NCBI GenBank assembly: GCA_958295985.1
Contig: OY282432.1
Span: forward strand, 2,513,001 to 2,577,000
Origin: an uncultured Candidatus Binatia bacterium
Lineage (GTDB): Bacteria; Desulfobacterota; Binatia; UBA9968; JAJDTQ01
Length of the DNA: 64,000 nt
Direction: 5' to 3'
Shown here: positions 628 to 16,992 of the stretch, in pieces
How positions within the stretch are numbered: position 1 is the stretch's first letter
Layout: every line of letters begins with the position of its first letter
The notes under the pieces: generated by a model
The model's input: only the letters and a program-made list of their open reading frames with translations
Databases searched by the model: none
What the model was told of the DNA's origin: nothing
Program-made: the position numbers and the translations under genes

Positions 628-915
628 ATGAGCACCAAGACGATGAGTGAACTGCGCGAGCAGGTGGTCGAGAGGGCGACCATGGACGAGGAGTTCCGGG
701 CGCGGTTGCTCGCCGAGCCCAAGGCCGCGATCGAGGAAGAGTTGGGCGTCAAGATTCCCGACGGTTTCACCGTCGAGGTGCACGAGGATGTCGAGGACAC
801 CAGCCATCTGGTGCTCCCGCCGCCCGCGGCGCTCGGCGAGAGCGAGTTGGGCCAGGTGGCGGGTGGCAGGGGCAGCGGCAACGACGAAGCGATCACGTTC
901 TGGGACGACTTCTAG
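628..915 (+). CDS. NHLP-leader RiPP precursor 1
   Basis: This 95-residue precursor has the nitrile-hydratase-like leader fold signature (FRARLLAEPKAAIEEELG, then 'TVEVHED', then 'HLVLPPP') and ends at 'QVAGG', the site expected for a C39 protease. That leaves an 80-residue leader and the core RGSGNDEAITFWDDF. There is no Cys, so thioether or thiazole chemistry is unlikely. Its leader begins MSTKTMSELREQ and belongs with precursor 3 to one subfamily, distinct from the METAKEMQ subfamily. It starts at ATG 628 behind AAGGAGG (616-622), 77 bases below the promoter -10 box. Precursor 2 follows after 51 bases and is probably co-transcribed. Confidence 0.9.
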   Translation: MSTKTMSELREQVVERATMDEEFRARLLAEPKAAIEEELGVKIPDGFTVEVHEDVEDTSHLVLPPPAALGESELGQVAGGRGSGNDEAITFWDDF

Positions 916-966
916 GGAGCCGGTCCGGGTACGTAACCATAACTCTATTCAAGGAGGAGCAAACCA

Positions 967-1248
967 ATGGAAACGGCAAAGGAAATGCAGGCGAAGATCG
1001 TGGGCAAGGCGAGCGAGGACGCGGACTTCCGCGCCCGGCTGCTGAGCGATCCGAAGGGGGCGATCGAGCAGGAGTTGGGCGTCACCATTCCGGCGTCCCT
1101 GTCGGTCGAGGTCCACGAAGAGAGCGGCGCGACCGCGCATCTGGTTCTTCCCCCCGACAGCAAGCTGAGCGAGGGCGAGATGCAGACGGTCGCCGGCGGT
1201 ATGTTTGGCTTGGTCAACGAACAGCATCGCCGGGAGCTCAATTGGTAA
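967..1248 (+). CDS. NHLP-leader RiPP precursor 2
   Basis: This 93-residue precursor is the first of the METAKEMQ subfamily, whose 78-residue leader is nearly invariant across ten genes in the locus. Cleavage after 'TVAGG' would release MFGLVNEQHRRELNW, a 15-residue core ending in Asn-Trp. The ribosome site is AAGGAGGAGC before ATG. No promoter of its own is visible in the 51-base gap after precursor 1. It is followed by a stub of the unrecognised large gene (1306-1410). Confidence 0.9.
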   Translation: METAKEMQAKIVGKASEDADFRARLLSDPKGAIEQELGVTIPASLSVEVHEESGATAHLVLPPDSKLSEGEMQTVAGGMFGLVNEQHRRELNW

Positions 1249-1305
1249 TCCCGCCGGGCGGCTCCCACACGCTCGACGAGATGCAATGGAGGGGACAGGC
1301 TCCTC

Positions 1306-1410
1306 GATGAGGGGCGGCTTCGGCTCGGTCCTTGCCGGATGCCGCCCCCTGTTCCCCGTCCCACTGGTCGATTCCACCGGCTGGAAACGCCTCCTGGATC
1401 GAAGAGCAAA
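1306..1410 (+). pseudogene. 5' stub of an additional copy of the unrecognised RiPP-locus protein
   Basis: About 35 codons in frame (MRGGFGSVLAGCRPLF, then 'STGWKRLLDR') align with the start of the protein at 2042-3157 (ASVLRGCRTLF, then 'SGGWERLLAR'). The upstream 'aatggagg' also matches the ribosome-site region of that gene. The similarity stops abruptly at about 1410, where the promoter module of precursor 3 begins. This looks like a copy lost by recombination or deletion that left only its 5' end. Confidence 0.75.
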
Positions 1411-1505
1411 CGGACGGAAGCGCATGGATGCTTTCCACGGAAAACCCGGATGATCCACCTTTTTGGCGTCACGGTGTTGACATCGAAGTAGGAGTTCGCT
1501 ATCGT
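1409..1505 (+). promoter_or_regulatory. Promoter module of precursor 3 (near-identical repeat of 459-551)
   Basis: TTGACA at 1477-1482, a 17-base spacer and TATCGT at 1500-1505. The whole block from ACGGACGG to the precursor start codon (about 1409-1582) is almost identical to 459-628, so promoter, leader region and precursor have been duplicated together. Confidence 0.7.
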
Positions 1506-1581
1506 CCCGTTCCGGGAACATCTGCAGGCATCGTCGCCACGACGCTAACGCCGGGGTCGACGGCAAAACAAGGAGGATTTC

Positions 1582-1866
1582 ATGAGCACCAAGACGATGA
1601 GTGAACTGCGCGAGCAGGTGGTCGAGAGGGCGACCATGGACGAGGAGTTCCGTGCGCGGTTGCTCGCCGAGCCCAAGGCCGCGATCGAGGAAGAGTTGGG
1701 CGTCAAGATTCCCGACGGTTTCACCGTCGAGGTGCACGGGGATGTCGAGGACACCAGCCATCTGGTGCTTCCGCCGCCCACGACGCTCGGCGAGGGCGAG
1801 CTGGGCCAGGTGGCGGGTGGGCACCACGACAACGAACTGACCGCGCGGGAACTGTTCTGGAGCTAG
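1582..1866 (+). CDS. NHLP-leader RiPP precursor 3
   Basis: This 94-residue precursor has a leader that differs from precursor 1 at only a few positions (for example VHGD for VHED). The core after 'QVAGG' is entirely different: HHDNELTARELFWS. The abrupt switch from near-identity to no similarity at the GG site is the signature of core diversification. It starts behind AAGGAGG and is followed, after a hairpin repeat at about 1936-1960, by the complete unrecognised gene at 2042. Confidence 0.9.
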   Translation: MSTKTMSELREQVVERATMDEEFRARLLAEPKAAIEEELGVKIPDGFTVEVHGDVEDTSHLVLPPPTTLGEGELGQVAGGHHDNELTARELFWS

Positions 1867-1935
1867 GGAGCCGGTCCGGGTAAGGAACCCCGGATTCCGG
1901 GTCGAGCGCGGAACGGCGATGGAGGATCTTCTCCC

Positions 1936-1960
1936 GTCATTCCCGCGAAAGCGGGGACCG
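1936..1960. repeat. REP-like hairpin (CCCGC-GAAA-GCGGG)
   Basis: A five-base-pair stem closed by a GAAA tetraloop in the context 'gtcattcccgcgaaagcggg', a pattern typical of dispersed extragenic palindromes in bacteria. It lies in the gap between precursor 3 and the large gene at 2042. It could attenuate read-through or stabilise the precursor mRNA 3' end. That role is inference. Confidence 0.5.
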
Positions 1961-2041
1961 GGGGCTCGGACAGGCTCATGGGAGCCGTCTCCGGCGGGCT
2001 TCGGGTAGACTGCCGTGGCGTCGAAAATGGAGGTCCGCACC

Positions 2042-3157
2042 GTGAGCGTGGATGACGGCCGGCCGGCGGAGAATCGGGGTGACACCTTCGCGTCGGTCCT
2101 CCGCGGGTGCCGTACCCTGTTCTCTACTGCGCTGATGGACTCCGGGGGCTGGGAGCGTCTGCTGGCCCGGGCACGGTCGCTGCCCCGTTCCGTGATCGAT
2201 GCCCATTTCGGTTTCGAGTTCCATCTCGGGGAAGCGAGTGGGGACGCTGATCTCTTCGTCGTCGTGATTCCCGGATCGGACCTGTCGCGGCACTACATCC
2301 GCGAGGGCGCGCGCGCCGAGCGGGGGTCGGCGGCTGCGGCCCTCGGGGCCGGGCTTCGGGAACAGGCCGCGGACCCGGCATCGTACCTCGGCCGTTCCGT
2401 GGTCGGGACGGTGCTGGAGTACGACCTTTCCGGGCTTGCGCCCGGGGGGGAGGCGCCGGCCCCCGGGGTCTTCCTCGCGCCGCGGCACTCCGCCCCCGGG
2501 TCCCGTGAGGGGTTCGTCGAACATTCGGATCCCTCGGGCCTGCTCGCGGCCCTTGCCGCGATGGTGGGTTGGAGTGGCCACGAGGAGATCCTCCGAAAGG
2601 TGGAGCGCGTCTTCGCGGCTCTGCCGGAAACCGGCTACGTGTTCCAGGCGGGAGCCCTCCCGGGGCGTTCTCCGAGGGCGTTCCGGATCCTTCTCAAGGG
2701 CATCGCCAAGGAGGAGGTCCCCGACCTGCTGGAGCGGTTGGAATGGCCCGGCCCGACGGCCGGGGCCCTGGACGTACTCACCTGCATGGACGACCTCGTG
2801 GCCTACTTAGCCGTCAGCGTGGACGTGGCCGCGCAGGGGTTGGGTCCGCGGCTCGGCCTGGAACTGTACCGCGCCCGGAAATGGTTTGCGGTCGATCGTA
2901 CGGGGTGGAATCCCTTCATTGCCCGGATCGGGGACAAGGGCTGGTGCCTGCCTTCGAAAGCGGCCGGGCTGCGGAGTTGGCCGGGGACCGAACGGCTGCT
3001 CGACGGCGAAGAGCTGTACCTCGTCCGCCAGGGCATCAACCACGTCAAGGTCGTGGTCCAACGAGGCGTCCGAACGGTGGCGAAAGCGTACGCCGGCATG
3101 GACGTACGCCCGCAAGGGTCGAACCTGCGTCCGCGGTCCGCGGACGGGATGGGCTGA
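2042..3157 (+). CDS. Unrecognised RiPP-locus protein, candidate peptide-modifying enzyme (copy C)
   Basis: About 371 residues, soluble, with no signal peptide or membrane segment. I do not recognise the family. Features conserved with the paralogue at 7572-8714 are: 'GGW.RLLA' near the N-terminus; 'EF.LGE' and 'ADLFVVV.PGS.L.RH.IR.G' around residues 55-85; 'EYDL' around 130; 'GALPGR.PRA.R' around 210; 'VDVAA', 'LPRLGLELY' and 'GWCL..KA.GL' toward the C-terminus; and a terminal 'GINHVK', then 'AKAYAGM'. The alternating strand-like segments could be a beta-barrel fold such as ABBA prenyltransferases, but this is only a guess. The start is chosen as GTG 2042 because GGAGG lies 8 bases upstream and the same context precedes the next gene. 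In-frame starts at 2015 or 2027 have no ribosome site. It probably heads an operon with 3233 and 3562. Confidence 0.8.
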   Translation: MSVDDGRPAENRGDTFASVLRGCRTLFSTALMDSGGWERLLARARSLPRSVIDAHFGFEFHLGEASGDADLFVVVIPGSDLSRHYIREGARAERGSAAAALGAGLREQAADPASYLGRSVVGTVLEYDLSGLAPGGEAPAPGVFLAPRHSAPGSREGFVEHSDPSGLLAALAAMVGWSGHEEILRKVERVFAALPETGYVFQAGALPGRSPRAFRILLKGIAKEEVPDLLERLEWPGPTAGALDVLTCMDDLVAYLAVSVDVAAQGLGPRLGLELYRARKWFAVDRTGWNPFIARIGDKGWCLPSKAAGLRSWPGTERLLDGEELYLVRQGINHVKVVVQRGVRTVAKAYAGMDVRPQGSNLRPRSADGMG

Positions 3158-3232
3158 CGCCGGCGAGGTCGGGATCCTCTGCAAGCCCATGATGGAACGA
3201 AGACGCTCGTCGTCGAGAACGGAGGTTCGCAC

Positions 3233-3565
3233 ATGAGCACGGACGGTCATCCACCCGCGGGAGACGCAGGCGGCGGCTCCGTCCCCGAAGCGTCCGCGCG
3301 TCCCTCGGGCGCCGATGCCGGGGGGATCGACCGCCGGGCGCCCCTGAGCGCGGCGGAGGTGCGGAGTCTGTTGCGGGACGGGACGCCCATCGTGGGTCTC
3401 GCCGACCGCCGGGCCTTCCAGCAGGAAGCGGAGTACCTTCGGGCCCTGTCCGCGGACAACTCCAGGCCCGTTCCGCGTATCAGCATCAAGATCGTCCCGG
3501 ATCCGGACTCCGCAGTGGAGGAAGGGGAACCCGCGGAGACATCGGGAAAGAAGGGTGAAGCATGA
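3233..3565 (+). CDS. Small hypothetical protein coupled to the JmjC oxygenase
   Basis: 110 residues with no recognised domain. The first 35 residues are Gly/Ala/Pro/Ser-rich and probably disordered. Residues about 37-90 could form a small fold (LSAAEVRSLLRDGTPIVGL, then 'RAFQQEAEYLRAL'), and the tail is acidic. ATG follows GGAGG, in the same sequence context as the start at 2042. Its TGA overlaps the ATG of the next gene by four bases (ATGA), so the two products are likely made together. A substrate-delivery or partner role for the oxygenase is possible. It has neither the NHLP leader nor a GG site, so it is not another precursor of that type. Confidence 0.7.
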   Translation: MSTDGHPPAGDAGGGSVPEASARPSGADAGGIDRRAPLSAAEVRSLLRDGTPIVGLADRRAFQQEAEYLRALSADNSRPVPRISIKIVPDPDSAVEEGEPAETSGKKGEA

Positions 3566-4926
3566 CCGACTCGGCCACGCCGGAAGGGCCCGGCGCGGAA
3601 GCGCACCCTGCGGAGACCGTCCCCCGCGGCGCCGCCCCGGTCGAGGAGCTGGTTGCCGGTGCGGAGCGGTACGGACCGGCGTCCGGGTTCGAGGGCCTGG
3701 TCCGGCCCCTCGCCACGCAGGAGTTCCTGGACACCCGCTACCGAGACAAACGTCCGGTGCTGTTCCGGGCAAAGGGTCCGCGTTTCGCGTCTCTTTGCAC
3801 CTGGGAGGCGCTCAACGCGCTGCTGTCCTCGGGTGCGTGGCGCAACCGGATGTCTCTCGTGCAGCAGGGCCGGTCGGTGGCCGAGCATTACTACACGACG
3901 CCGCAGTTCGGCCACGGATGGAGAGGGAGAAGAGGAGGTGCGAACGAACGCCACATCGACGACGGGCGGCTGGCGACCTTCCTCCGCAAGGGCGCCAGCA
4001 TGGTCATGTCGGGCATCAACGAGGTTCATCTCCCTCTCCGCCCCGTAACCGACGCAATCGAGGAGACCCTGGGCGGCTACACCGGGATCAACCTCTACGC
4101 CTCCTGGGTGGCGACCCCCGGCTTTGCCGTGCACTGGGACGACCACGACGTGTTCGTGCTGCAGGTCGCCGGCGCAAAGCGTTGGCAGATCTACGGCGAA
4201 ACGCGGCGCTTTCCGCTCAACCGGGATTCGGAACCGAACGTGGAGCCGCCTCGGGAGATGGTGTGGAGCGAGGTGATCCGGTCGGGTGACGTCCTCTACA
4301 TCCCGCGGGGGTGGTGGCACGATGCCCGCACCCAGGACGACGAAGGGAAGGATGGCTCGGGTAGCCTGCACCTCACCTGCAGCGTCCTCCCGGTGACCGG
4401 GCTCGACTTCATGGAGTGGCTCTCCGGCAGGCTCGCTCGCCACGAGACCTTTCGCCGCGACCTCCCCCACCCCACGGACGGGACCGGCGATGCCCACTAC
4501 GCGGCGCTCAGGGACCTGATCCTCGGGGAACTGCAGGGCGACGTCGGACGGAAGTTCCGCGGCTATATGCGCTCCACCTGGTCCGAGAGCCCCCGGATGA
4601 GCCTTGGCCCCTGCATCGATCCCTGGAAGTCTCCGGATTGGGAGCGTTACGAAATCCGGCTCCGGGGCGACCGGTGCGCGACCCTGGAGCGGAACGCCGG
4701 TGGGGAGGCGGTGCTGGAGGCCAACGGCTATCGCTGGACCTTCGACGGCCGCTGCGTGGAGTTGCTGGCTCCACTCCTGCGGGGCGGGAGCGTGCGCGTC
4801 GGGGCTTTCCGGGAAACGGTCGTCGAGGGAGCTTCGGCAGAGTTGGCCGATGAGTTCCTCAAGCTGCTGGTCATGCGGGGGGTCGCGTACGCCGTGCCGC
4901 CGGCCTCCGGGCCGGAGCATGGGTGA
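3562..4926 (+). CDS. JmjC/cupin-4 Fe(II)/2-oxoglutarate oxygenase (RoxA/YcfD-like)
   Basis: 454 residues. The JmjC core has the full ribosomal-oxygenase motif H-x-D-x-x-D-V-F-x-x-Q, here VHWDDHDVFVLQ with H191 and D193. The distal metal ligand H253 lies in 'YIPRGWWHDA'. About 180 C-terminal residues resemble the helical and winged-helix part of this family. Known relatives hydroxylate Arg or His side chains of ribosomal proteins. Here the gene sits inside a peptide-precursor array and is coupled to a small protein, so hydroxylation of the peptide cores is the likely role. That is inference, and the residue attacked is unknown. It is the last gene of the 2042-4926 run and is followed by a fresh promoter. 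Confidence 0.88.
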   Translation: MTDSATPEGPGAEAHPAETVPRGAAPVEELVAGAERYGPASGFEGLVRPLATQEFLDTRYRDKRPVLFRAKGPRFASLCTWEALNALLSSGAWRNRMSLVQQGRSVAEHYYTTPQFGHGWRGRRGGANERHIDDGRLATFLRKGASMVMSGINEVHLPLRPVTDAIEETLGGYTGINLYASWVATPGFAVHWDDHDVFVLQVAGAKRWQIYGETRRFPLNRDSEPNVEPPREMVWSEVIRSGDVLYIPRGWWHDARTQDDEGKDGSGSLHLTCSVLPVTGLDFMEWLSGRLARHETFRRDLPHPTDGTGDAHYAALRDLILGELQGDVGRKFRGYMRSTWSESPRMSLGPCIDPWKSPDWERYEIRLRGDRCATLERNAGGEAVLEANGYRWTFDGRCVELLAPLLRGGSVRVGAFRETVVEGASAELADEFLKLLVMRGVAYAVPPASGPEHG

Positions 4927-4987
4927 ATCCGCAGCATCCGGCGCGCGGCCGGGAACGGAGCGCACCGGAATCGAGCGCGTAGCTGAG

Positions 4988-5074
4988 ACGGACGGCCGCG
5001 TTCCCCGGAAATTCCTGATAACGGTATTTTCTTTGCATTGGGTCTTGACATCGGATGAGCCGGTATTGTAGGGT
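4988..5074 (+). promoter_or_regulatory. Promoter module of precursor 4 (second type)
   Basis: TTGACA at 5045-5050, an 18-base spacer and TAGGGT at 5069-5074. Upstream is the conserved block ACGGACGGCCGCGTTCCCCG, then GAAATTCCTGATAAC, which contains the near-palindromes TTCCCCGGAA and GGAAATTCC, a plausible regulator site. The same block precedes precursors 7 and 10. Confidence 0.6.
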
Positions 5075-5127
5075 ACAGGTGATCGTGCGGCGCACGTAAC
5101 CATCACTTCATCGAGGAGGAACGAGCT

Positions 5128-5424
5128 ATGGCAACGGCAAGGGAAATGCAGGCGAGGGTCGTGAGCAAGGCGAGCGAGGACGCGGACTTCCGCGCCCGGC
5201 TGCTGAGCGATCCGAAGGGGGCGATCGAGCAGGAGTTGGGCGTCACCATTCCAGCGTCCCTGTCGGTCGAGGTTCACGAAGAGAACGACGCGGCTGCGCA
5301 CTTGGTTCTTCCTCCCGACAGCAAGCTGAGCGAAAGCGACCTGCAGGCGGTCGCCGGCGGCGCCCGCTACGACTCAAACGGTGCGCGTGTCGATACGGAT
5401 TGGATTATCACGGCCGATTGGTAA
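5128..5424 (+). CDS. NHLP-leader RiPP precursor 4
   Basis: 98 residues with the METAKEMQ-subfamily leader (here MATAREMQ). After 'AVAGG' comes the longest core of this subfamily, ARYDSNGARVDTDWIITADW, with two Trp and a terminal Asp-Trp. The ribosome site is GAGGAGGA. It opens the second block of precursors, downstream of the oxygenase gene. Confidence 0.9.
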   Translation: MATAREMQARVVSKASEDADFRARLLSDPKGAIEQELGVTIPASLSVEVHEENDAAAHLVLPPDSKLSESDLQAVAGGARYDSNGARVDTDWIITADW

Positions 5425-5496
5425 TCCGGCCGGGCCGCTCAGCAGTGGGTCGTGGCGTGTGCCCGAAATCCGGATCTGTTGCACGGCAAGTCAGGG

Positions 5497-5526
5497 TTGA
5501 CACCCGATGGATCGTTGGCAGAATAT
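5497..5526 (+). promoter_or_regulatory. Possible promoter of precursor 5
   Basis: A perfect TTGACA (5497-5502) followed at 18 bases by GAATAT (5521-5526) in an AT-rich stretch. Unlike the repeated modules, this sequence occurs once in the array, in the 165-base gap between precursors 4 and 5. Confidence 0.45.
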
Positions 5527-5588
5527 ATCTGCCGCCGGAAGCCTAGCGACATGACATGGAGTATACCATCACCCGAAAGGAGCGAACT

Positions 5589-5864
5589 ATGGAAACGGCA
5601 AAGGAAATGCAGGCAAGGGTCGTGGGCAAGGCGGCTGAGGACGCGGACTTCCGCGCCCGGCTGTTGAGCGATCCGAAGGGGGCGATCGAGCAGGAGTTGG
5701 GCGTCACCATTCCAGCGTCCCTGTCGGTCGAGGTCCACGAAGAGAGCGGCGCGGCTGCGCATCTGGTTCTTCCCCCCGACAGCAAGCTGAACGAAAGCGA
5801 CCTGCAGGCGGTCGCCGGGGGCGCTCGTCCCCGTGGACAGGAGTGGGACCCCCGCACCTGGTAA
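5589..5864 (+). CDS. NHLP-leader RiPP precursor 5
   Basis: 91 residues. The METAKEMQ leader ends in 'AVAGG' and the core is ARPRGQEWDPRTW, with two Trp and the last one terminal. The start is ATG 5589 behind AAAGGAGCGAACT. An in-frame ATG at 5556 lies upstream of that ribosome site and would add non-leader residues, so it is not used here. Confidence 0.9.
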   Translation: METAKEMQARVVGKAAEDADFRARLLSDPKGAIEQELGVTIPASLSVEVHEESGAAAHLVLPPDSKLNESDLQAVAGGARPRGQEWDPRTW

Positions 5865-5908
5865 TCCCGCCGGGCCGCTCAGCGGTCCTGCGGTCCTGCG
5901 GGCGTGCA

Positions 5909-6008
5909 TCCTGGCGTCGACTCACGGTCACGAAGACCGGGGTCGATGCCAGGGATACCCGGCATGACCTGCTCCCTCGCGCAGGACCGGCCCGGTTCGA
6001 GGCGCTGA
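5909..6008 (+). pseudogene. Internally deleted copy of the unrecognised RiPP-locus protein (F type)
   Basis: The first bases ('gcatcctggcgtcga') match the start region of the gene at 7572 ('gcatcatgacgtcgg'), with the ATG changed to CTG. From 5921 to 6008 the sequence matches the last roughly 90 bases of that gene ('ctcacggtcacg', then 'gacctgctccctcgcgcagg'). Nearly the whole coding region between these ends is missing. This remnant shows that a further full copy once lay between precursors 5 and 6. Confidence 0.75.
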
Positions 6009-6047
6009 TGGCGATCACCCGCCGTTCCCCTGAGACGAAACAAACCA

Positions 6048-6338
6048 GTGGAAACAGCGAAGGAAATGCGTGCGAAGATCGTGGGCAAGGCGACTGAGGA
6101 CGCGGATTTTCGCGCCCGGCTGCTCAGTGATCCGAAGGGAACGATCGAGTCGGAGTTGGGCGTCACGATTCCTGCGTCCCTGTCGATCGAGGTTCACGAA
6201 GAGAGCGGCATGACCGCGCATCTGGTTCTTCCCCCGGACAGCAGGCTGAGCGAAAGCGATCTGCAGGCGGTCGCCGGCCAGGCGAGGATAAAACAGATAT
6301 GGGCCGGGCTCGATAGGCTCATTCGCAATTGGGGGTAA
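6048..6338 (+). CDS. NHLP-leader RiPP precursor 6, probably decaying or atypical
   Basis: 96 residues. The leader is conserved, but three features are abnormal. The start codon is GTG rather than ATG, the AGGAGG present before the sister genes is missing ('tgagacgaaacaaaccaGTG'), and the processing site reads 'VAGQ' instead of 'VAGG'. The core would be ARIKQIWAGLDRLIRNWG, which still carries two Trp and a near-terminal Asn-Trp. It lies directly after the deleted gene copy at 5909-6008, whose loss probably removed its translation signal. It may be poorly translated and uncleavable. Confidence 0.75.
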   Translation: METAKEMRAKIVGKATEDADFRARLLSDPKGTIESELGVTIPASLSIEVHEESGMTAHLVLPPDSRLSESDLQAVAGQARIKQIWAGLDRLIRNWG

Positions 6339-6381
6339 TCCCGCCCGGCCGCTCAGCGGTCCTGCAGGCGCACAAATGAAG

Positions 6382-6467
6382 CGGGATGGCCGCGTTCCCC
6401 GGAAATTCCTGATAACCGTATTTTTTGTGCATCTGGTCTTGACATCGGGTGGCCGGTATCGTAGGTT
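6382..6467 (+). promoter_or_regulatory. Promoter module of precursor 7
   Basis: TTGACA at 6439-6444, a 17-base spacer and TAGGTT at 6462-6467. It is preceded by the same CGTTCCCCGGAAATTCCTG block as upstream of precursors 4 and 10. Confidence 0.6.
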
Positions 6468-6521
6468 GCATGTGATTCTGCGGCGCACGTAACCATAACT
6501 CTATTCGAGGAGGAACAAACC

Positions 6522-6785
6522 ATGGCAACGGCAAAGGAAATGCAGGCGAGGATCGTGGGCAAGGCGGCCGAGGACTCGGACTTCCGCGCCCGGCTGCTGA
6601 GCGATCCAAAGGGGGCGATCGAGCAGGAGTTGGGCGTCACCATTCCTGGGTCCCTGTCGGTCGAGGTCCACGAAGAGAGCGGCGCGGCTGCGCATCTGGT
6701 TCTTCCCCCCGCCAGCAACCTGAGCGAAGGCGATCTGCAGGCGGTCGCCGGGGGCGGGGATTGGAATATCACCTCTGACTGGTAA
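6522..6785 (+). CDS. NHLP-leader RiPP precursor 7
   Basis: 87 residues. The leader has Gly in place of Ala in 'TIPGSLS', a variant shared only with precursors 8 and 9, so these three are the most recent duplicates. The core after 'AVAGG' is GDWNITSDW, only nine residues, joint shortest with precursor 14, with two Trp. It starts behind GAGGAGGA. Confidence 0.9.
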   Translation: MATAKEMQARIVGKAAEDSDFRARLLSDPKGAIEQELGVTIPGSLSVEVHEESGAAAHLVLPPASNLSEGDLQAVAGGGDWNITSDW

Positions 6786-6822
6786 TCCCGCGGGCCGCTC
6801 AGCGGTCCTGCGGGCGCGCATC

Positions 6823-6855
6823 ATGACGTCGAACCCGTTTCTCGCAGTTTGGTGA
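6823..6855 (+). pseudogene. 5' stub of the F-type unrecognised protein
   Basis: ATGACGTCGAACCCGTTTCT and the next bases match the first ten codons of the gene at 7572 (MTS.PFLAV), then hit a TGA and run into a degraded promoter segment. This is a third scar of the same duplicated gene in the array. Confidence 0.6.
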
Positions 6856-6924
6856 GCCGGTATCCTGGGTACAGGTGATCGTGCGGGGTACGTAACCATA
6901 ACTCTATTCAGTGAGGAACGAACT

Positions 6925-7215
6925 ATGGAAACGGCAAAGGAAATGCAGGCGAAGATCGTGGGCAAGGCGGCCGAAGACTCGGACTTCCGCGCCCGGCTGC
7001 TGAGCGATCCGAAGGGGGCGATCGAGCAGGAGTTGGGCGTCACCATTCCTGGGTCCCTGTCGGTCGAGGTCCACGAAGAGAGCGGCGCGGCTGCGCATCT
7101 GGTTCTTCCCCCCGCCAGCAAGCTGAGCGAAAGCGACCTGCAGGCGGTTACGGGCGGGACCTTTACTAATTACGATTACGGTACGGCGCGCATCTCACTA
7201 ACCGACAATTGGTAA
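6925..7215 (+). CDS. NHLP-leader RiPP precursor 8
   Basis: 96 residues. The leader is nearly identical to precursor 9, but the processing site reads 'VTGG'. The core is TFTNYDYGTARISLTDNW, 18 residues, with a single terminal Trp. The promoter region is a remnant: the stretch 'gtgagccggtatcctgggtacagg' corresponds to the second promoter type but lacks TTGACA. Transcription therefore probably comes from the precursor 7 promoter. Confidence 0.9.
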   Translation: METAKEMQAKIVGKAAEDSDFRARLLSDPKGAIEQELGVTIPGSLSVEVHEESGAAAHLVLPPASKLSESDLQAVTGGTFTNYDYGTARISLTDNW

Positions 7216-7253
7216 CGACGGCTTTTGACACCATCACCCGAAAGGAGCGAACC

Positions 7254-7535
7254 ATGGAAACGGCAAAGGAAATGCAGGCGAGGGTCGTGGGCAAGGCGGC
7301 TGAGGACTCGGACTTCCGCGCCCGGCTGCTGAGCGATCCGAAGGGGGCGATCGAGCAGGAGTTGGGCGTCACCATTCCTGGGTCCCTGTCGGTCGAGGTC
7401 CACGAAGAGAGCGGCGCGGCTGCGCATCTGGTTCTTCCCCCCGCCAGCAAGCTGAGCGAAAGCGACCTGCAGGCGGTCGCCGGCGGCGCCGTGATGGGCG
7501 ACATAGGGAGAATCTGGAGGGTGCAGGATTGGTAA
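7254..7535 (+). CDS. NHLP-leader RiPP precursor 9
   Basis: 93 residues, starting 38 bases after precursor 8 with ATG 7254 behind AAAGGAGCGAACC. An in-frame upstream start (7209) would add residues with no leader similarity. The core is AVMGDIGRIWRVQDW, with two Trp and terminal Asp-Trp. The complete unrecognised gene follows after 36 bases, so precursors 7-9 and that gene probably form one operon. Confidence 0.9.
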   Translation: METAKEMQARVVGKAAEDSDFRARLLSDPKGAIEQELGVTIPGSLSVEVHEESGAAAHLVLPPASKLSESDLQAVAGGAVMGDIGRIWRVQDW

Positions 7536-7571
7536 TCCCAGGGCCGCCCGGCGGTCCTGCGGACGCGCATC

Positions 7572-8714
7572 ATGACGTCGGACCCGTTTCTCGCAGTTGA
7601 GATGACCGAGCCGGTCTCGCGGTGTGGTACATCAACGCCTGATGAGCGCCGCGCACCGGGGACGGAGCTCGCGGAGGTCTTCCGTCCACTGATACCGCAC
7701 GCTTTGCTCGACGGTCCCGGATGGGATCGGTTGCTGGCCTGTGCCGCGGAGTTGCCTGACGCCGGGTTGGCGACGCCCCTCGGTTGCGAGTTTCGGCTCG
7801 GAGAGGAAACGCCTGCCGCGGACCTGTTCGTGGTGGTCAGACCGGGGAGCCCGCTTGCGCGGCACTTCATCCGCAGGGGCGAAGCCGCGCCTCCGGGCTC
7901 GACGGCCGCGGCGCTGGCCCGGTACCTTGTCGAGATCGGGCAAGCCGGATCTGCATTGCACGGTTGCATCGCCGGGACCATGCTCGAGTACGACCTGGCC
8001 GAGACGCCGGCCGGCCGGCGGCCGGAGCCGGGCGTGTTTCTGAAGGTGCGGCTCGGGGAGGAGCCCGAGCCGCATGACCGCCCGCAGCCCTTGCCGGTCG
8101 CGGCGCTGGCGGACGCGGTCGGCTGGACCGATGATGGCGAGGTGCGGCAGTCGGTGGCGCGGGTGCTGGCGGCGTTGCCGCCGGGCGGCAGGGTCGCCCA
8201 CATCGGAGCGTTACCGGGCCGGGCGCCGCGGGCGGTGCGGCTGGTGGTCCAGGGGCTCGGGCACGACGAGATCGGCAGGGTGCTGGAGCGGTTGGGCCGG
8301 CGCGGGTCGATCGGCCCGGTGACGGAAGTCCTGACCGACCTCGGGGAGGTGTTGCCCCGGTTCCGGCTGGCAGTGGACGTGGCCGCCACGGGGCTGTTGC
8401 CCCGGCTCGGCCTGGAGCTGTATCACGCGGGATCGTGGAGCAACGAACCCGACGGTTGGCTGATCACGGGGCGGAGCGACTGGCGGCCGGTGGTGGAGCG
8501 GCTGGCGCTGCGTGGTTGGTGCCTGGCGGCGAAGGCGCAGGGGCTGCTTCAGTGGTGTGCGCTCGACAAGATGTACGACCGCCGGGGCGTGTTCCTCGTC
8601 TACAAGGGGATCAACCACGTCAAGCTCACGGTCACGGAGGCCGGGGTCGATGCCAAGGCATACGCGGGCATGACCTGCTCCCTCGCGCAGGACCAACCCG
8701 GTTCGGGGTGCTGA
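7572..8714 (+). CDS. Unrecognised RiPP-locus protein, candidate peptide-modifying enzyme (copy F)
   Basis: 380 residues, a clear but diverged paralogue of the protein at 2042-3157. It has the same order of blocks: 'GPGWDRLLA', 'CEFRLGE', 'ADLFVVVRPGSPLARHFIR', 'LEYDLAE', 'GALPGRAPRAVR', 'AVDVAATGLLPRLGLELY', 'GWCLAAKAQGL', 'YKGINHVKL', 'AKAYAGM'. It has about 25 extra N-terminal residues that are not conserved. I do not recognise the family. The invariant charged and aromatic positions (E-x-D in EYDL, K-A-Y near the end, N-H in GINHVK) are candidates for an active site. It lies among METAKEMQ precursors, whereas copies A and C lie beside the MSTKTM precursors, suggesting each copy serves a precursor subfamily. 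No clear ribosome site precedes ATG 7572. Confidence 0.8.
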   Translation: MTSDPFLAVEMTEPVSRCGTSTPDERRAPGTELAEVFRPLIPHALLDGPGWDRLLACAAELPDAGLATPLGCEFRLGEETPAADLFVVVRPGSPLARHFIRRGEAAPPGSTAAALARYLVEIGQAGSALHGCIAGTMLEYDLAETPAGRRPEPGVFLKVRLGEEPEPHDRPQPLPVAALADAVGWTDDGEVRQSVARVLAALPPGGRVAHIGALPGRAPRAVRLVVQGLGHDEIGRVLERLGRRGSIGPVTEVLTDLGEVLPRFRLAVDVAATGLLPRLGLELYHAGSWSNEPDGWLITGRSDWRPVVERLALRGWCLAAKAQGLLQWCALDKMYDRRGVFLVYKGINHVKLTVTEAGVDAKAYAGMTCSLAQDQPGSGC

Positions 8715-8757
8715 CGGCGCGCCCCCGTCGCTCCCGCCCGAGCGAATGCGTGGATGA

Positions 8758-8845
8758 AACGGACGGCCGTGTTCCCCGAAAATTCCTGATTACCTCATTC
8801 TTTGGGCATTTGGTCTTGACATCGGATGATCCGGTATCGTAGGGT
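8758..8845 (+). promoter_or_regulatory. Promoter module of precursor 10
   Basis: TTGACA at 8816-8821, an 18-base spacer and TAGGGT at 8840-8845, preceded by the ACGGACGGCCGTGTTCCCCG block. From this module to the start codon the sequence is nearly the same as upstream of precursor 4. Confidence 0.6.
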
Positions 8846-8900
8846 ACAGGTGATCGTGCGGGGTACGTAACCATAACTCTATTCAAGGAGGAGCAAACCA

Positions 8901-9173
8901 ATGGAAACGGCAAAGGAAATGCAGGCGAAGATCGTGGGCAAGGCGGCTGAGGACTCGGACTTCCGCGCCCGGCTGCTGAGCGATCCGAAGGGGGCGATAG
9001 AGCAGGAGTTGGGCGTCACCATTCCAGCGTCTCTGTCGATCGAGGTTCACGAAGAGAGCGGCGCGACCGCGCATCTGATTCTTCCTCCCGACAGCAAACT
9101 GAGCGAGGGCGAATTGCAGACGGTCGCCGGCGGTTTTGAGAGACATGAGGGGTTCTACAACATTAATTGGTAA
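8901..9173 (+). CDS. NHLP-leader RiPP precursor 10
   Basis: 90 residues, METAKEMQ leader, core FERHEGFYNINW after 'TVAGG', aromatic-rich with a terminal Asn-Trp. The ribosome site is AAGGAGGAGC. It opens the third promoter block, with precursors 11 and 12 following at short spacing. Confidence 0.9.
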   Translation: METAKEMQAKIVGKAAEDSDFRARLLSDPKGAIEQELGVTIPASLSIEVHEESGATAHLILPPDSKLSEGELQTVAGGFERHEGFYNINW

Positions 9174-9238
9174 CGAGTGTAACCAGGTGTAACTCTCGAA
9201 CATCAACGGCAATTCCATTACCCGAAAGGAGCAAACCA

Positions 9239-9526
9239 ATGGAAACGGCAAAGGAAATGCAGGCGAAGATCGTGGGCAAGGCGGCTGAGGACTCGGACTT
9301 CCGCGCCCGGCTGCTGAGCGATCCGAAGGGGGCGATAGAGCAGGAGTTGGGCGTCACCATTCCAGCGTCTCTGTCGGTCGAGGTTCACGAAGAGAGCGAC
9401 GCGGCTGCGCATCTGGTTCTTCCCCCCGACAGCAACCTGAGCGAAGGCGACCTGCAGGCGGTCGGCGGCGGGGGTCAGTCGAGGCTTTTTGGGCAGAATG
9501 TCGACACAGCCATTAGCGACTGGTAA
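9239..9526 (+). CDS. NHLP-leader RiPP precursor 11
   Basis: 95 residues from ATG 9239 behind AAAGGAGC. An upstream in-frame start (9167) is outside the leader family. The leader ends 'AVGGG' and the core is GQSRLFGQNVDTAISDW. The core is recognisably related to that of precursor 12 (shared LFG, VD, SDW), the one case in the array where two cores still look homologous. Confidence 0.9.
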   Translation: METAKEMQAKIVGKAAEDSDFRARLLSDPKGAIEQELGVTIPASLSVEVHEESDAAAHLVLPPDSNLSEGDLQAVGGGGQSRLFGQNVDTAISDW

Positions 9527-9583
9527 TCCCGCGGAGCCGCTCAGCGGTCCAACGGCAATTCCATTACCCGAAAGGAGTGAACC

Positions 9584-9874
9584 ATGGAAACGGCAAAGGA
9601 AATGCAGGCGAGGATCGTGGGCAAGGCGGCCGAGGACGCGGACTTCCGCGCCCGGCTGCTGAGCGATCCGAAGGGGGCGATCGAGCAGGAGTTGGGCGTC
9701 ACCATTCCAGCGTCTCTGTCGATCGAGGTTCACGAAGAGAGCGGCGCGGCTGCGCATCTGGTTCTTCCCACCGACAGCAACCTGGGCGAAGGCGACCTGC
9801 AGGCGGTCGCCGGCGGCAGGGGTCAGGCGATGCTTTTTGGGCGGCCTGTCGACTCAGTCACTAGCGACTGGTAA
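9584..9874 (+). CDS. NHLP-leader RiPP precursor 12
   Basis: 96 residues, core RGQAMLFGRPVDSVTSDW after 'AVAGG'. It differs from precursor 11 by scattered substitutions that keep the terminal Ser-Asp-Trp, and looks like a recent tandem duplicate whose core has begun to diverge. The leader carries LPTDS in place of LPPDS. The ribosome site AAAGGAGTGAACC sits in the same 57-base spacer type as precursor 11. Confidence 0.9.
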   Translation: METAKEMQARIVGKAAEDADFRARLLSDPKGAIEQELGVTIPASLSIEVHEESGAAAHLVLPTDSNLGEGDLQAVAGGRGQAMLFGRPVDSVTSDW

Positions 9875-10028
9875 TCTCGCTGAGTCGCTCAGCGGTCCTG
9901 CAGGCGCGCATCATGGAGTCGAACCGGTCGCCGCTGACGGTGCGTTGCGAGACGGTGTGCAGGCGATGGATCCCGGAGTCACGAGTTTGGGAAAATCATC
10001 AGTTTTACCTCCCTGAAAGGAGAGGAAC

Positions 10029-10358
10029 ATGAACGAGGAAGGGATGACCGCCGGTGAGATGCGCGATCGCTTGATCGAAAAGGCGACCGAGGACGCGGAT
10101 TTCCGCGCCCGGCTGCTCAGCGATCCGAAGGGAACGATCGGGCAGGAGTTGGGCGTCACCATTCCGGCGTCCCTGTCGATCGAGGTTCACGAAGAGAGCG
10201 GCACGACCGTGCATCTGGTTCTTCCTCCCGACAGCAAACTGAGCGAGGGCGAATTGCAGACGGTCGCCGGCGGCACTCGTATCAGCAGTGACGGTAAGCG
10301 TGTCGTTCAACACAATACGCCTGTTTGGGGGGCTTTGACTGAGGAAATGGCGCTGTAG
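10029..10358 (+). CDS. NHLP-leader RiPP precursor 13 (mosaic leader, longest core)
   Basis: 109 residues. The first 20 residues or so (EMRDRLIEKAT) match precursor 14. From 'EDADFRARLLSDPKGTI' to 'TVAGG' the sequence matches the METAKEMQ subfamily, especially precursors 6 and 10, so the gene looks like a recombinant. The core is 27 residues, begins TRISSDGKRVV and contains one internal Trp (TPVWGAL). It does not end in Trp. The ribosome site is GAAAGGAGAGG. The 5' flank 'atcatcagttttac' is shared only with precursor 14. Confidence 0.88.
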   Translation: MNEEGMTAGEMRDRLIEKATEDADFRARLLSDPKGTIGQELGVTIPASLSIEVHEESGTTVHLVLPPDSKLSEGELQTVAGGTRISSDGKRVVQHNTPVWGALTEEMAL

Positions 10359-10445
10359 CGGTCGGGTCGGGGGCGAGCTTCCAGCCGGCGAGTGTCATGG
10401 CTTGGGGGAGATCATCAGTTTTACTTTTCCTGAAAGGAGAGGAAC

Positions 10446-10721
10446 ATGGACGAGAAAAGGATAACCGCCGGTGAGATGCGCGATCGTTTGATCGAAAAGG
10501 CGACTGTGGACGATGTGTTCCGCGCCCGGTTGATGGCGGACCCCAAGGCCGCGATCGAGGCGGAAACAGGCGTGACCGTGCCCTCCGAGTTCACCATCGA
10601 GGTACACGAGGACACCGCGGATACCAGTCACCTGATCCTTCCGCCCTCCGCCGACCTCGGTGAAGCCGATCTGGAGCAGGTCGCCGGAGGCTTTTCCTGG
10701 GCTGACGTGGGATGGCGCTGA
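10446..10721 (+). CDS. NHLP-leader RiPP precursor 14
   Basis: 91 residues and the most divergent leader (ARLMADPKAAIEAETGV, then 'TVPSEFTIEVHED', then 'EQVAGG'). Its mid-section is closer to precursors 1 and 3 than to the METAKEMQ group. The nine-residue core FSWADVGWR has two Trp and ends in Arg. It is the last precursor, convergent with the export operon, whose last stop codon lies 72 bases away. No clear terminator hairpin is visible between them. Confidence 0.88.
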   Translation: MDEKRITAGEMRDRLIEKATVDDVFRARLMADPKAAIEAETGVTVPSEFTIEVHEDTADTSHLILPPSADLGEADLEQVAGGFSWADVGWR

Positions 10722-10792: not shown

Positions 10793-13738
10793 CTAGGTCA
10801 TTTGGCGGCGCACCAGGTTGCGGAAGGGGCCGTCGATCTCGATCAGTTCGTTGAACGTGCCGGTCTGGGCCACTTGGCCATCCTGCAGCACGTAGATGCG
10901 GTTGGCCATGCGGATGGTGGACAGGCGGTGGGCCGTCACGAACCGGGTGACGGCAAGTTCGGCCACGTTGTGCATCACTTGCGCCTGGCTCTTGTTGTCG
11001 AGCCAGTTGGTGGCCTCGTCGAGAAACAGGACGCTGGGGTCCCGGACCAGCGCCGCGGCCAGCATGATCCGCTGGATCTGCCCGCCCGAGAAAGCCGCCG
11101 ACTTGTCTCCGGTGACCGTGTACATCTGCATGGGCATGGCGGCGATGTCTTCGTCCACCGAAGCCATGCGGGCCGCCCGCCAGGCGTCCTCCTCGGTGAG
11201 CTCTCCGGACACTCCGATGATGTTTTCGAGCACGGTGCCGGGGTGTAGCGACACGTCCTGCACCACCATGCTGATCCTGCTGCGCACCGCTCGCTTGTTG
11301 AGGCGAGCGAGATCGCGCCCGTCGTAGTAAACGGCCCCCGACATCGGTGTCTCGAGTCCGAGGGCGAGCCGGAACAGGGTGCTCTTGCCCGCCCCGGATT
11401 CTCCGACGATGGCCACGAACTCGCCGGCGCGGGCGTGGATCGAGACGTCCTGCAGGACCAGGGGACCGTCCTCGGAATAACGGAAGCTCACGTGGTCCAC
11501 GTGGAGGTCGCCGCTGAGCTCCGGCGGCGGCTCGCCTTTGGCGCCCGTCTCCGGCTTCGACTCCAGGATCGGAGTCACCTGCTCGTACGCGGGCATGACC
11601 GCGGCGAGCGCGGAAAACGAAATGCCGAGCCTGGCCACCGCCGCATAGAACACCATGAACGCCGCGTAGATGGTGAGGAAGTCCCCGGTGGGAAGGGTCG
11701 CACGGCCGTCGTGCACCGCCGCCGTGAACACCGCTGCCGCGGCCAGCAGGGGCGCGGCAGCCAGGAAGGCGATCAGATGCTCGTCCAGCCTGCCGAGCCG
11801 CATCTCGGTCTGCTTCTGTTCCTGGTAGTTCTGCGCCCACAAGGCGAACCCGATGCCTTCGGATCCGGTGGACCGCAGCTTGCTGAAGCCGTTCAGCAGT
11901 TGCAGCAACCGGCCTGCAAGCTGTCGTGAGATGGTGAGCAGGCGCCGTTGGTGAGGTAGCTGGAGGATGCCGATGGCCGCGGTCACCCCCAGGGAGGACA
12001 GTCCCAGCCCCAGACCGAGCCAGCCGATCTCGGTGTTGTAGACGAACAACAGCACGAACGTCGGCAGGAGGAAGATCACCGACAGGAGAGCGTTGCCGAC
12101 CACGCCTGAGACCTGATCGCGCAGTCCCTGGAAGGCCATGGTGCGCATGGTGAGGTCACCGGATGAGAAGCGGCGAAAGAACCGCTGCGGCAGGCCGAGC
12201 AGCCGGTCCCAGAGCGCCGCGCCCACGCGGGCCGCGGCTACGGCCTCCAGCCGCATCAGGGCCGTTCCCTGGAGGACTTGCAGGAGCCCGGTGAGAATGG
12301 CCAGCAGGACCAGGGACAGCGAGAGCTCCAGGAGTTGCCAGCCGGACCCGCTCGGGATCACGCGGTTCACGAGGGCGCCGAGCAGGATGGGCGGCATCAG
12401 CATCATGAGGCCCACCAGCAGTCCGGCCAGGATGAAGCGCGCCAGGTCCTTGCCGAGCCCGCGGAACGCGAAGCGGAACAGGGCGCCCGAGCGGACCGTT
12501 TCCTCCTGCGGCAACGCGCGGTAGAAGAAGTACGCTTCGGAAGCGAGGTCCCGGGCCAAGTCCCCGTCCACCCGCTCCGAACGGCCCGTCTCCGGGTCGA
12601 TCATCCGGTAACGGCCCGACACGCCCGGAATCAGCGCCACCGGGTTCCCGGACTCGCGCCGGAACGCCAGCATCGCGCCGCTGTCGCCGCGCCACCAACG
12701 GTCGTCGGCAGCGAGCTTGACCTTGCGCGCGCGGACCCCGGACACGCGCTGGATCTCCGTCAGGTCGTGGGTCTCTTCCTCCATTCCCCTCCGGCGGGGT
12801 GGAGCGCGGAACCGAATGCCTTCGTGGCTGCCCACCAGATCCAGGGCGCTCAGCAGGCCCGATCCGTCGTCCCTCTTCTCCACCGGGGAACGGCGCGCCT
12901 TCAGGACGCCGATCAGGTTGTCGCGAGCGCGCTCCTCGCTCCGGCTCTGGCGTTGGACTTGGGCTCGCTGCAAGTTGGCCATGTCCACGAGTATCAGGCG
13001 CCGGTTGAGTTCCTCCACGGACAGCGCCAGTCGATGGAACTCGGCCAGAGCGGAGAACAGCAGGCCATCGGCTTCGAGCGCCGCGGACGTGGTGACGGTC
13101 AGTCGGGAGGGGTGGAACAGCCGTATCCAGCTTTTGACCGACACGGGGATGAAGCCCGGACCGCTGCCGGTGAGCTCGCCGGTGTCGAGGAAAGCCGCGT
13201 TCCCCACCGGTGTCGAGACCCAGAGTACGCCGTGCCGGGTGGACAGCACGTTTTCGGCCACGACCTCGTCGTCCTTGCCCGCGGTCAGGAAGCGCTCGGG
13301 GCGCGGGCGCGGCTCCACCTCCTGGGCGATTGCCGCGGCGACGTCGGTAATCCAGGTATCGACTTGCTCGGTCAGGGGTCCGGCAACCCCGGGGCCGGTC
13401 AAAGCGGTCCGGGGGACGCAGCGGAGCTCGGTGTCGGGGAGCCCCTTGGCGATGTACACCGACATGGAGATATCCTCGTCGTTGTCGACGCCGAAGATCC
13501 ACCTGCCGGCGCCGGCGCGCAGGAGTTGCTTGAAGTCCGATGCCTCCCCGTCCGCAGAACGCTGGACGGCGAATATGTCCATCGCGCCCCTGACCACGTA
13601 CCATACCGTCCCGGGATCGGACAGGAGGACGGGCCGGTTGCCTCCGCCGGTGAACGTCTCGCCCTGCGTGAGCGCGATTTCTTCGAGTCTGCCCAGTGCC
13701 GGCTTCTGCATGTCCCTCGTTCCGTGCTTCCCCTTCAA
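10793..13738 (-). CDS. NHLP-type peptide export ABC transporter, permease/ATPase (ABC2 type)
   Basis: About 980 residues. The N-terminal third is a non-peptidase regulatory region typical of NHLM-type ABC2 exporters (VWYVVRGAMDIFAV suggests a cyclic-nucleotide-binding-like beta fold). A six-helix ABC membrane domain lies at roughly 430-700 and a C-terminal nucleotide-binding domain has Walker A GESGAGKST, signature FSGGQ, Walker B LFLDEAT and switch His in VTAHRLS. There is no C39 peptidase. The listed start is TTG 13738, which overlaps the upstream gene's stop (TTGA) and has GGAG 5 bases before it. ATG 13711 (MQKPALG) is the main alternative. With the next two genes it forms the secretion operon for the precursors. 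Confidence 0.9.
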   Translation of the reverse strand: MKGKHGTRDMQKPALGRLEEIALTQGETFTGGGNRPVLLSDPGTVWYVVRGAMDIFAVQRSADGEASDFKQLLRAGAGRWIFGVDNDEDISMSVYIAKGLPDTELRCVPRTALTGPGVAGPLTEQVDTWITDVAAAIAQEVEPRPRPERFLTAGKDDEVVAENVLSTRHGVLWVSTPVGNAAFLDTGELTGSGPGFIPVSVKSWIRLFHPSRLTVTTSAALEADGLLFSALAEFHRLALSVEELNRRLILVDMANLQRAQVQRQSRSEERARDNLIGVLKARRSPVEKRDDGSGLLSALDLVGSHEGIRFRAPPRRRGMEEETHDLTEIQRVSGVRARKVKLAADDRWWRGDSGAMLAFRRESGNPVALIPGVSGRYRMIDPETGRSERVDGDLARDLASEAYFFYRALPQEETVRSGALFRFAFRGLGKDLARFILAGLLVGLMMLMPPILLGALVNRVIPSGSGWQLLELSLSLVLLAILTGLLQVLQGTALMRLEAVAAARVGAALWDRLLGLPQRFFRRFSSGDLTMRTMAFQGLRDQVSGVVGNALLSVIFLLPTFVLLFVYNTEIGWLGLGLGLSSLGVTAAIGILQLPHQRRLLTISRQLAGRLLQLLNGFSKLRSTGSEGIGFALWAQNYQEQKQTEMRLGRLDEHLIAFLAAAPLLAAAAVFTAAVHDGRATLPTGDFLTIYAAFMVFYAAVARLGISFSALAAVMPAYEQVTPILESKPETGAKGEPPPELSGDLHVDHVSFRYSEDGPLVLQDVSIHARAGEFVAIVGESGAGKSTLFRLALGLETPMSGAVYYDGRDLARLNKRAVRSRISMVVQDVSLHPGTVLENIIGVSGELTEEDAWRAARMASVDEDIAAMPMQMYTVTGDKSAAFSGGQIQRIMLAAALVRDPSVLFLDEATNWLDNKSQAQVMHNVAELAVTRFVTAHRLSTIRMANRIYVLQDGQVAQTGTFNELIEIDGPFRNLVRRQMT

Positions 13739-16883: not shown

Positions 16884-16992
16884 GGTACCATCCTCCCGGA
16901 TACCCGCCGGCGCCGGACGCGCCTGCCTGCATGCCGGTCGGGTACGGTCGCACAACGACCGGCAGCAGAACCTGACGGGTTGCGTAACACAC

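Follow-up and report, generated by a model that had tools for sequence, protein, structure and literature searches.

The stretch of DNA analysed in this study, referred to as the window, comprises 64,000 nucleotides from an uncultured Candidatus Binatia bacterium (GCA_958295985.1, contig OY282432.1, positions 2,513,001–2,577,000), which is apparently a sponge symbiont, going by its relatives and the literature. Across positions 628–10721 the window carries 14 precursor genes of a putative ribosomally synthesized and post-translationally modified peptide (RiPP) pathway, each encoding a nitrile hydratase-like leader peptide (NHLP; TIGR03793) and a core, and among them lie genes for a 380-amino-acid protein, termed P380 here, that is predicted to be a prenyltransferase. 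Genomes compared are given G-numbers, with G000 being the genome that holds the window, and loci are given L-numbers. All 14 precursors exceed the TIGR03793 cut-off of 50.9 bits in a whole-genome search, the first (628–915) scoring 69.1 bits, and G000 as a whole encodes 19 precursors of the two leader types described below that score above this cut-off. The array extends upstream of the window with four further precursors (G000 C1 2510599–2512229; L023 12576, 13109, 13607, and 13997), and a relic precursor with the core RPAAGDIGRWSVHNW is situated at G000 1712860 (1.71 Mb), where it adjoins a P380 gene copy that is broken. A transposase-like open reading frame (ORF; L023 11669–12427) stands directly 5' of the first precursor of this extended array, and growth or movement of the array may be linked to a mobile element.

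The precursors possess leaders of two types, T1 (leaders like that of 628–915) and T2 (leaders like that of 9584–9874), and all are encoded on the forward strand. Type T1 is found at 628–915 (core RGSGNDEAITFWDDF) and 1582–1866 (HHDNELTARELFWS), with a T1-like precursor at 10446–10721 (FSWADVGWR). Type T2 is found at 967–1248 (MFGLVNEQHRRELNW), 5128–5424 (ARYDSNGARVDTDWIITADW), 5589–5864 (ARPRGQEWDPRTW), 6048–6338 (ARIKQIWAGLDRLIRNWG), 6522–6785 (GDWNITSDW), 6925–7215 (TFTNYDYGTARISLTDNW), 7254–7535 (AVMGDIGRIWRVQDW), 8901–9173 (FERHEGFYNINW), 9239–9526 (GQSRLFGQNVDTAISDW), and 9584–9874 (RGQAMLFGRPVDSVTSDW), with a T2-like precursor at 10029–10358 (TRISSDGKRVVQHNTPVWGALTEEMAL). The P380 genes, also on the forward strand, likewise fall into two groups, type a and type b. 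A type-a gene follows the T1 precursor at 1582–1866 (2015–3157; assigned by family alignment, the fold evidence having been made on 7572–8714), and a type-b gene follows the T2 precursor at 7254–7535 (7572–8714). The 3' end of a further type-a gene occupies 1–376, with its start upstream of the window at G000 C1 2512301 (L023 14301–15377, 75.5% identical to window 2015–3157), and a relic of a type-a N-terminus remains at 1301–1411 (G000 C1 2514301–2514411).

The initial annotation of the window described Trp in each of the 14 cores, Cys in none, and ten cores ending in Trp or Trp-Gly, all of which is confirmed here, as are the ends it listed (ELNW, TADW, PRTW, RNWG, TSDW, TDNW, VQDW, NINW, ISDW, and TSDW) and the four cores with internal Trp (TFWDDF, LFWS, VWGA, and VGWR). 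Asp or Asn, which it held usually to precede the Trp, does so in nine of these ten cores, PRTW being the exception. With a background of 1.48% Trp, the probability of Trp occurring in all 14 cores by chance is ∼10^-9.8, a figure that applies to cores that are related duplicates and so not independent. A wider survey covered all precursors of eight genomes in which the loci contain close P380 relatives (G000, a congener, and others labelled Gammaproteobacteria, Spirochaetia, and SAR202), with weak NHLP-like matches, namely nitrile hydratase itself and truncated or unrelated leaders scoring <90 bits, excluded from the core statistics. Trp is present in all 65 distinct cores of this Trp-bearing type (W-type), 39 of which end in Trp and some of which contain two or three, and Asp or Asn precedes the last Trp in 36 of the 65. 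In a SAR202 locus (L163; G038 C42 714000–721000), the cores open with Asp-Trp right after the leader (DWRNMGGPGAE, DWRTGGEGGP), placing Trp at the core's N-terminal end, and the locus has its own prenyltransferase and exporter next to these precursors.

The absence of Cys had been taken to exclude Cys-based chemistry. For the 14 window cores this absence has a probability of ∼0.14 and is weak evidence alone, but it becomes informative once the relatives are included, the 65 distinct cores having no Cys in 1030 residues, and a genome-wide search of G000 found no YcaO, within the cluster or elsewhere. Thiazole and lanthionine chemistry was rejected on the grounds of these Cys-free cores and the lack of YcaO in G000. 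The cores are also not random outside their Trp, as had been supposed, with several being identical in other genomes. GDWNITSDW, FERHEGFYNINW, RGSGNDEAITFWDDF, and AVMGDIGRIWRVQDW are each shared between genomes even though their codons carry synonymous changes and the adjoining leaders have diverged at many residues; only protein-identical cores entered this comparison, so that zero non-synonymous changes in the core follows from the selection and the contrast with the leaders is the informative part.

The position of Trp in the core differs with the type of leader. Terminal Trp is found in 36 of 41 distinct T2 cores, as opposed to one of 18 distinct T1 cores (Fisher 1.5e-9), in which Trp sits a few residues before the end. 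A terminal Asp/Asn-Trp ([DN]W), proposed previously as a general signature, therefore belongs to one of the two leader types, T2. The precursor directly upstream is of type T1 for ten of 11 type-a P380 genes and of type T2 for all six type-b genes (Fisher 5.7e-4), with these pairing counts including orthologous loci, which are not independent and make the p-values optimistic. The pairing suggests that T2 leaders would be served by the type-b enzyme and T1 leaders by type a.

P380 has no useful match in Pfam, NCBIfam, PHROGs, or PDB sequences, even when searched with a 34-member profile, and its identity was revealed by fold alone. An AlphaFold model of the type-b protein (7572–8714), built on a 12-member alignment, has a predicted local distance difference test score (pLDDT) of 78.8 and a predicted template modelling score (pTM) of 0.80, and is made up of five beta-beta-alpha-alpha repeats. 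Each of the 49 PDB matches returned by Foldseek for this model at E ≤ 1e-3 is an ABBA aromatic prenyltransferase, the peptide prenyltransferases LimF, PagF, and PirF being among them, and the top of the VIA-align ranking is held by indole or Trp prenyltransferases (MpnD, Z 16.3; FgaPT2, 16.0; DMATS1, 15.8). The ten-stranded barrel typical of ABBA enzymes is seen in P380 in the predicted model. Five residues are invariant in the 34-member alignment (G71, E73, K351, K362, and Y364), and E73 is located on the first barrel strand (70–75) of the model. Catalysis by DMATS enzymes relies on a first-strand Glu and on Lys and Tyr side chains surrounding the diphosphate. On the strength of the model, P380 is predicted to be a cryptic ABBA-barrel prenyltransferase, and the family of peptide-terpene hybrids that this suggests is overlooked by annotation pipelines because no known family matches P380 by sequence. 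The initial annotation expected a modification directed at Trp, and the predicted aromatic-prenyltransferase fold, taken with Trp in 65 of 65 W-type cores, supports this and makes Trp the likely site of modification.

P380 is present in all ten genomes searched, which were chosen for carrying it, and this universality is therefore uninformative in itself. What is informative is the loss of the other enzymes from some genomes in which the aromatic core residue persists, and the constant association is that of the prenyltransferase with an aromatic core residue. P380 is the sole universal tailoring protein of the cluster, and its best fold likeness is to indole prenyltransferases. Several other observations concern this family. 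In L043 (10794–11987) and L044 (9350–10543), a second prenyltransferase paralogue without the otherwise conserved Glu (WLGF replacing FGFE) lies beside RCCC cores, which contain no aromatic residue. In the W-type locus of the congener G004 (L038 9584–11152), a FAD_binding_4 oxidase resembling BagK/FevA1 is encoded directly 5' of the prenyltransferase, and is possibly another oxidase of Trp or of the terpenoid. A distant prenyltransferase of the family (27% identity) is also found in L161 (G035 C1 422000–441900; also in G039), a locus that also holds ABC transporters of the NHLM type, two genes for YcaO, a 924-aa frame in which FAD oxidase and halogenase are fused, and a sulfotransferase-like gene.

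Within the array, the gene at 3562–4926 (forward strand) encodes a JmjC_2 2-oxoglutarate oxygenase of the NO66/MINA/YcfD-like kind (PF08007, E 5e-25; NO66 by sequence), which is probably a second tailoring enzyme. Its position, together with the frequency of Asp or Asn just ahead of the final Trp and a report of cupin-4 genes with NHLP clusters from sponges (PMC9426513), would fit an alternative in which hydroxylation of Asp/Asn (or Trp) by this oxygenase is the main modification, [DN]W its recognition site, and P380 an accessory. The oxygenase was found in five of the ten genomes searched (G000, G035, G039, G040, and G041) and not in the other five (G004, G036, G037, G038, and G042), whereas P380 is present in all ten, and this alternative is scarcely probable. 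JmjC was rejected as the defining enzyme, since it is missing from G004 (a metagenome-assembled genome (MAG) 88% complete), where both cores end in Asp-Trp.

Beyond the array, the gene at 17020–18033 (forward strand) encodes a 337-aa protein with the motif DLDSLS, for which AlphaFold predicts a single alpha/alpha barrel (pLDDT 87.0). The solved structures nearest to this model are drimenol synthase (Z 31.8; 2.5–2.8 Å over ∼300 residues) and MstE (Z 27.9), with unrelated toroids scoring only ∼19–20, and the profile of the family matches drimenol synthase among PDB sequences (E 3.5e-9), with DLDS aligned to DLDT. D113, which aligns with the general-acid Asp, is invariant in the family. Judged by this model, the protein has a class II terpene cyclase fold (SHC/DMS-type alpha/alpha barrel). 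Exactly one cyclase-like gene was found in seven of the ten genomes, in most of them within the array or beside P380. In G039 and G041, the homologue is directly upstream of the JmjC gene and is fused to the counterpart of the 110-aa protein encoded at 3233–3565 of the window (forward strand), which by alignment equals the C-terminal extension of the cyclase-like protein in G035, G039, and G041. The gene at 17020 is therefore probably part of the system and was relocated.

The strongest genomic clue to the chemistry is an operon in two Pseudomonadales genomes (L047 and L053), where precursor(s), P380, a cyclase with the full motif DADDTS, and a polyprenyl diphosphate synthase (PF00348, E 1e-53 and 2e-54) follow one another on one strand with short gaps. 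This bears on whether the system is limited to simple prenylation, with Trp receiving a short prenyl group from P380 and the cyclase-like protein doing something else, for example as a scaffold or a relative of lost function. The acid motif of the cyclase-like protein in W-type loci is DxDS and its gene is displaced from the array in G000; three genomes in which no such gene was found (G004, G037, and G038) still have Trp cores and P380; and ABBA peptide prenyltransferases of the cyanobactin type use short donors (PMC13290415). Simple prenylation nevertheless seems unlikely, given the recurrence of the cyclase-like gene in the other seven genomes, the polyprenyl synthetase and complete acid motif of the Pseudomonadales operon, and the strong match of the modelled fold to active class II cyclases.

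In both Pseudomonadales genomes, all cores (11 and 15 distinct) contain Tyr and an N-terminal His, most have a HxH-like tail, and a minority contain Trp, and their prenyltransferase nests inside the W-type clade. According to the initial annotation, homologous loci with the same enzymes and Trp-free cores would speak against a role for Trp; such loci do exist in part, in that the precursors beside the Pseudomonadales pair are without Trp, but all of these contain Tyr. Trp as an absolute requirement was dropped in view of these Tyr-type loci, and the rule is therefore better put as an aromatic acceptor that is usually Trp. A change of acceptor from Trp to Tyr is what an aromatic prenyltransferase would allow. 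This substitution also counts, with the universal aromatic-prenyltransferase fold predicted for P380, against the proposal that Trp is left unmodified and kept for export, cleavage, or target binding, with the enzymes acting elsewhere on the core; such a role could accommodate the differing position of Trp between leader types and the cores with two or three Trp, and is considered improbable. NHLP precursor arrays of a Tyr/His type were observed in G036 and G042 (L129, L130, and L153–L157), every core opening with His and containing Tyr and most closing with an HxH-rich tail; for one of these arrays, of 8–10 genes, the retrieved stretch contains no prenyltransferase.

Taken together, these observations favour, with a probability of roughly 0.7, a RiPP pathway with multiple precursors in which the core Trp receives an isoprenoid. 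Stand-alone ABBA prenyltransferases of divergent sequence would recognise the NHLP leaders, type b acting with T2 leaders (terminal [DN]W) and type a with T1, and would alkylate the indole of Trp from an allylic diphosphate, the donor probably exceeding C5 in length and Tyr replacing Trp as the acceptor in one lineage. The single-domain class II cyclase-like protein would protonate and cyclise the prenyl chain, either once it is on the peptide or on the diphosphate before transfer, and the JmjC oxygenase may add a hydroxyl group to either the core or the terpenoid. A cognate NHLM exporter adjoins the array on the reverse strand, with a permease/ATPase subunit at 10793–13738 (ABC2; TIGR03797, 748 bits, cut-off 709), a subunit with C39 peptidase, permease, and ATPase at 13735–16305 (ABC1; TIGR03796, 892 bits, cut-off 853; PF03412, E 1.8e-35), and a HlyD-type membrane fusion protein at 15981–16955 that scores below its own cut-off (TIGR03794, 91 bits, cut-off 156; HlyD_3, E 4e-12). 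This exporter is predicted to cut after the GG-type motif and would secrete the product. Elsewhere in the window, an ORF at 26846–27790 has four tandem GSPEQQ repeats near its start and encodes an otherwise ordinary-looking protein, and no Rfam match was found anywhere in the window.

Scanning with the P380 family returned mostly loci with the core LCCCW, which are of the srp type, and nearly all of these carry a P380 homologue together with a cyclase homologue whose N-terminus bears an NHLP domain. This domain is leader-like in L042 (3725–5038) and about 60 srp-type loci, as if the cyclase were built on a precursor leader. The srp pathway corrects the earlier statement that no characterised NHLP class has the signature seen here, since SrpE, an NHLP precursor with the core LCCCW, has its C-terminal Trp brominated by SrpI (PMC10858898). 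It also raises the possibility that the Trp of the present cores is brominated in the same way, with related P380 genes occurring in LCCCW loci. Bromination is, however, highly improbable, as no PF04820 match was found in G000 (99.95% complete) or in G040 and there is no halogenase gene within the cluster; it was rejected for G000. Nor does G000 have the makings of an srp cluster, with no Cys in its cores, no YcaO, and no flavin halogenase of the SrpI type.

Several points weigh against terpenylation of the core Trp. In some srp-type loci, the cores beside P380 contain no aromatic residue at all (LCCCGI, RCCC). P380 matches no known prenyltransferase at the sequence level, and TM-scores of ∼0.4–0.55 mark it as divergent. 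The counts behind the pairing of leader and enzyme are not independent, orthologous loci being included. The acid motif of the cyclase-like protein in G000 is DxDS and not DxDD, the W-type genomes G004, G037, and G038 yielded no cyclase-like gene among the ten searched, and JmjC is present in only five of the ten.

Modification of a C-terminal Trp in an NHLP peptide, cyclised terpenes on peptidyl Trp, and leader-dependent prenylation of Trp are all known already. The closest precedent is found in NctPC and ChrPC of the polycyclic-isoprenoid RiPPs, of which NctPC is described (PMC13290415, citing Hubrich et al. 2024) as an ABBA prenyltransferase (the P domain) fused to a MstE-like class II cyclase that geranylgeranylates peptidyl Trp and cyclises the chain on it, with low similarity to cyanobactin prenyltransferases. 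There, the two activities reside in one protein. The present system would work in a similar way, but every locus seen has a separate gene for each activity, the prenyltransferase occurs as several paralogues, and the many precursors bear NHLP leaders and form large arrays. The srp proteusins (SrpE/SrpC/SrpI) share the NHLP leader, the C-terminal Trp as the modification site, and an origin in sponge symbionts (PMC10858898), but G000 is without their Cys, YcaO, and halogenase, and its cores are longer and varied. MppC is an ABBA-type enzyme that prenylates one Trp of a lanthipeptide and depends on a long structured (Nif11-like) leader (PMC12715784); it differs in the lanthionine-macrocyclised core, the Nif11-like leader, the geranyl donor, and the lack, in the part of the account consulted, of a described cyclase. 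PalQ and ComQ also prenylate Trp of ribosomal peptides, PalQ needing a C-terminal Trp, but with an isoprenoid-synthase fold and not ABBA (PMC10853753). Drimenol synthases and MstE share the single-barrel class II terpene cyclase fold predicted for the protein at 17020–18033, whose DLDS aligns with the catalytic Asp motif, but they act on free diphosphate or benzoate substrates, drimenol synthases have a phosphatase domain, and DxDS is found in the protein of the window; MstE cyclises an aryl-bound prenyl chain.

Whether these loci represent a previously unrecognised class of terpenylated proteusins across sponge-symbiont phyla is judged to be about an even chance. Such a class would combine an ABBA family that is an orphan by sequence and a single-domain class II cyclase, both acting in trans on NHLP precursor arrays, with leader-matched prenyltransferase paralogues and a Trp-to-Tyr switch in one lineage, and the same pair of enzymes would give the near-ubiquitous srp clusters an isoprenoid branch that has stayed hidden, the cyclase there carrying an NHLP leader domain. 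A protein family that is an orphan in the databases, and that is present in nearly every locus recovered, mostly from sponge-derived-looking MAGs, gains a predicted chemistry from this analysis, and what was an unknown NHLP cluster becomes a testable hypothesis in which separate enzymes, guided by leaders, make peptide-terpene hybrids. If this is true, one genome would encode ∼18 terpenylated peptides, the many srp clusters would include an isoprenoid step that has gone unnoticed, and the two leader types with their matched enzymes would constitute a modular tool for the lipidation of terminal or internal Trp (or Tyr).

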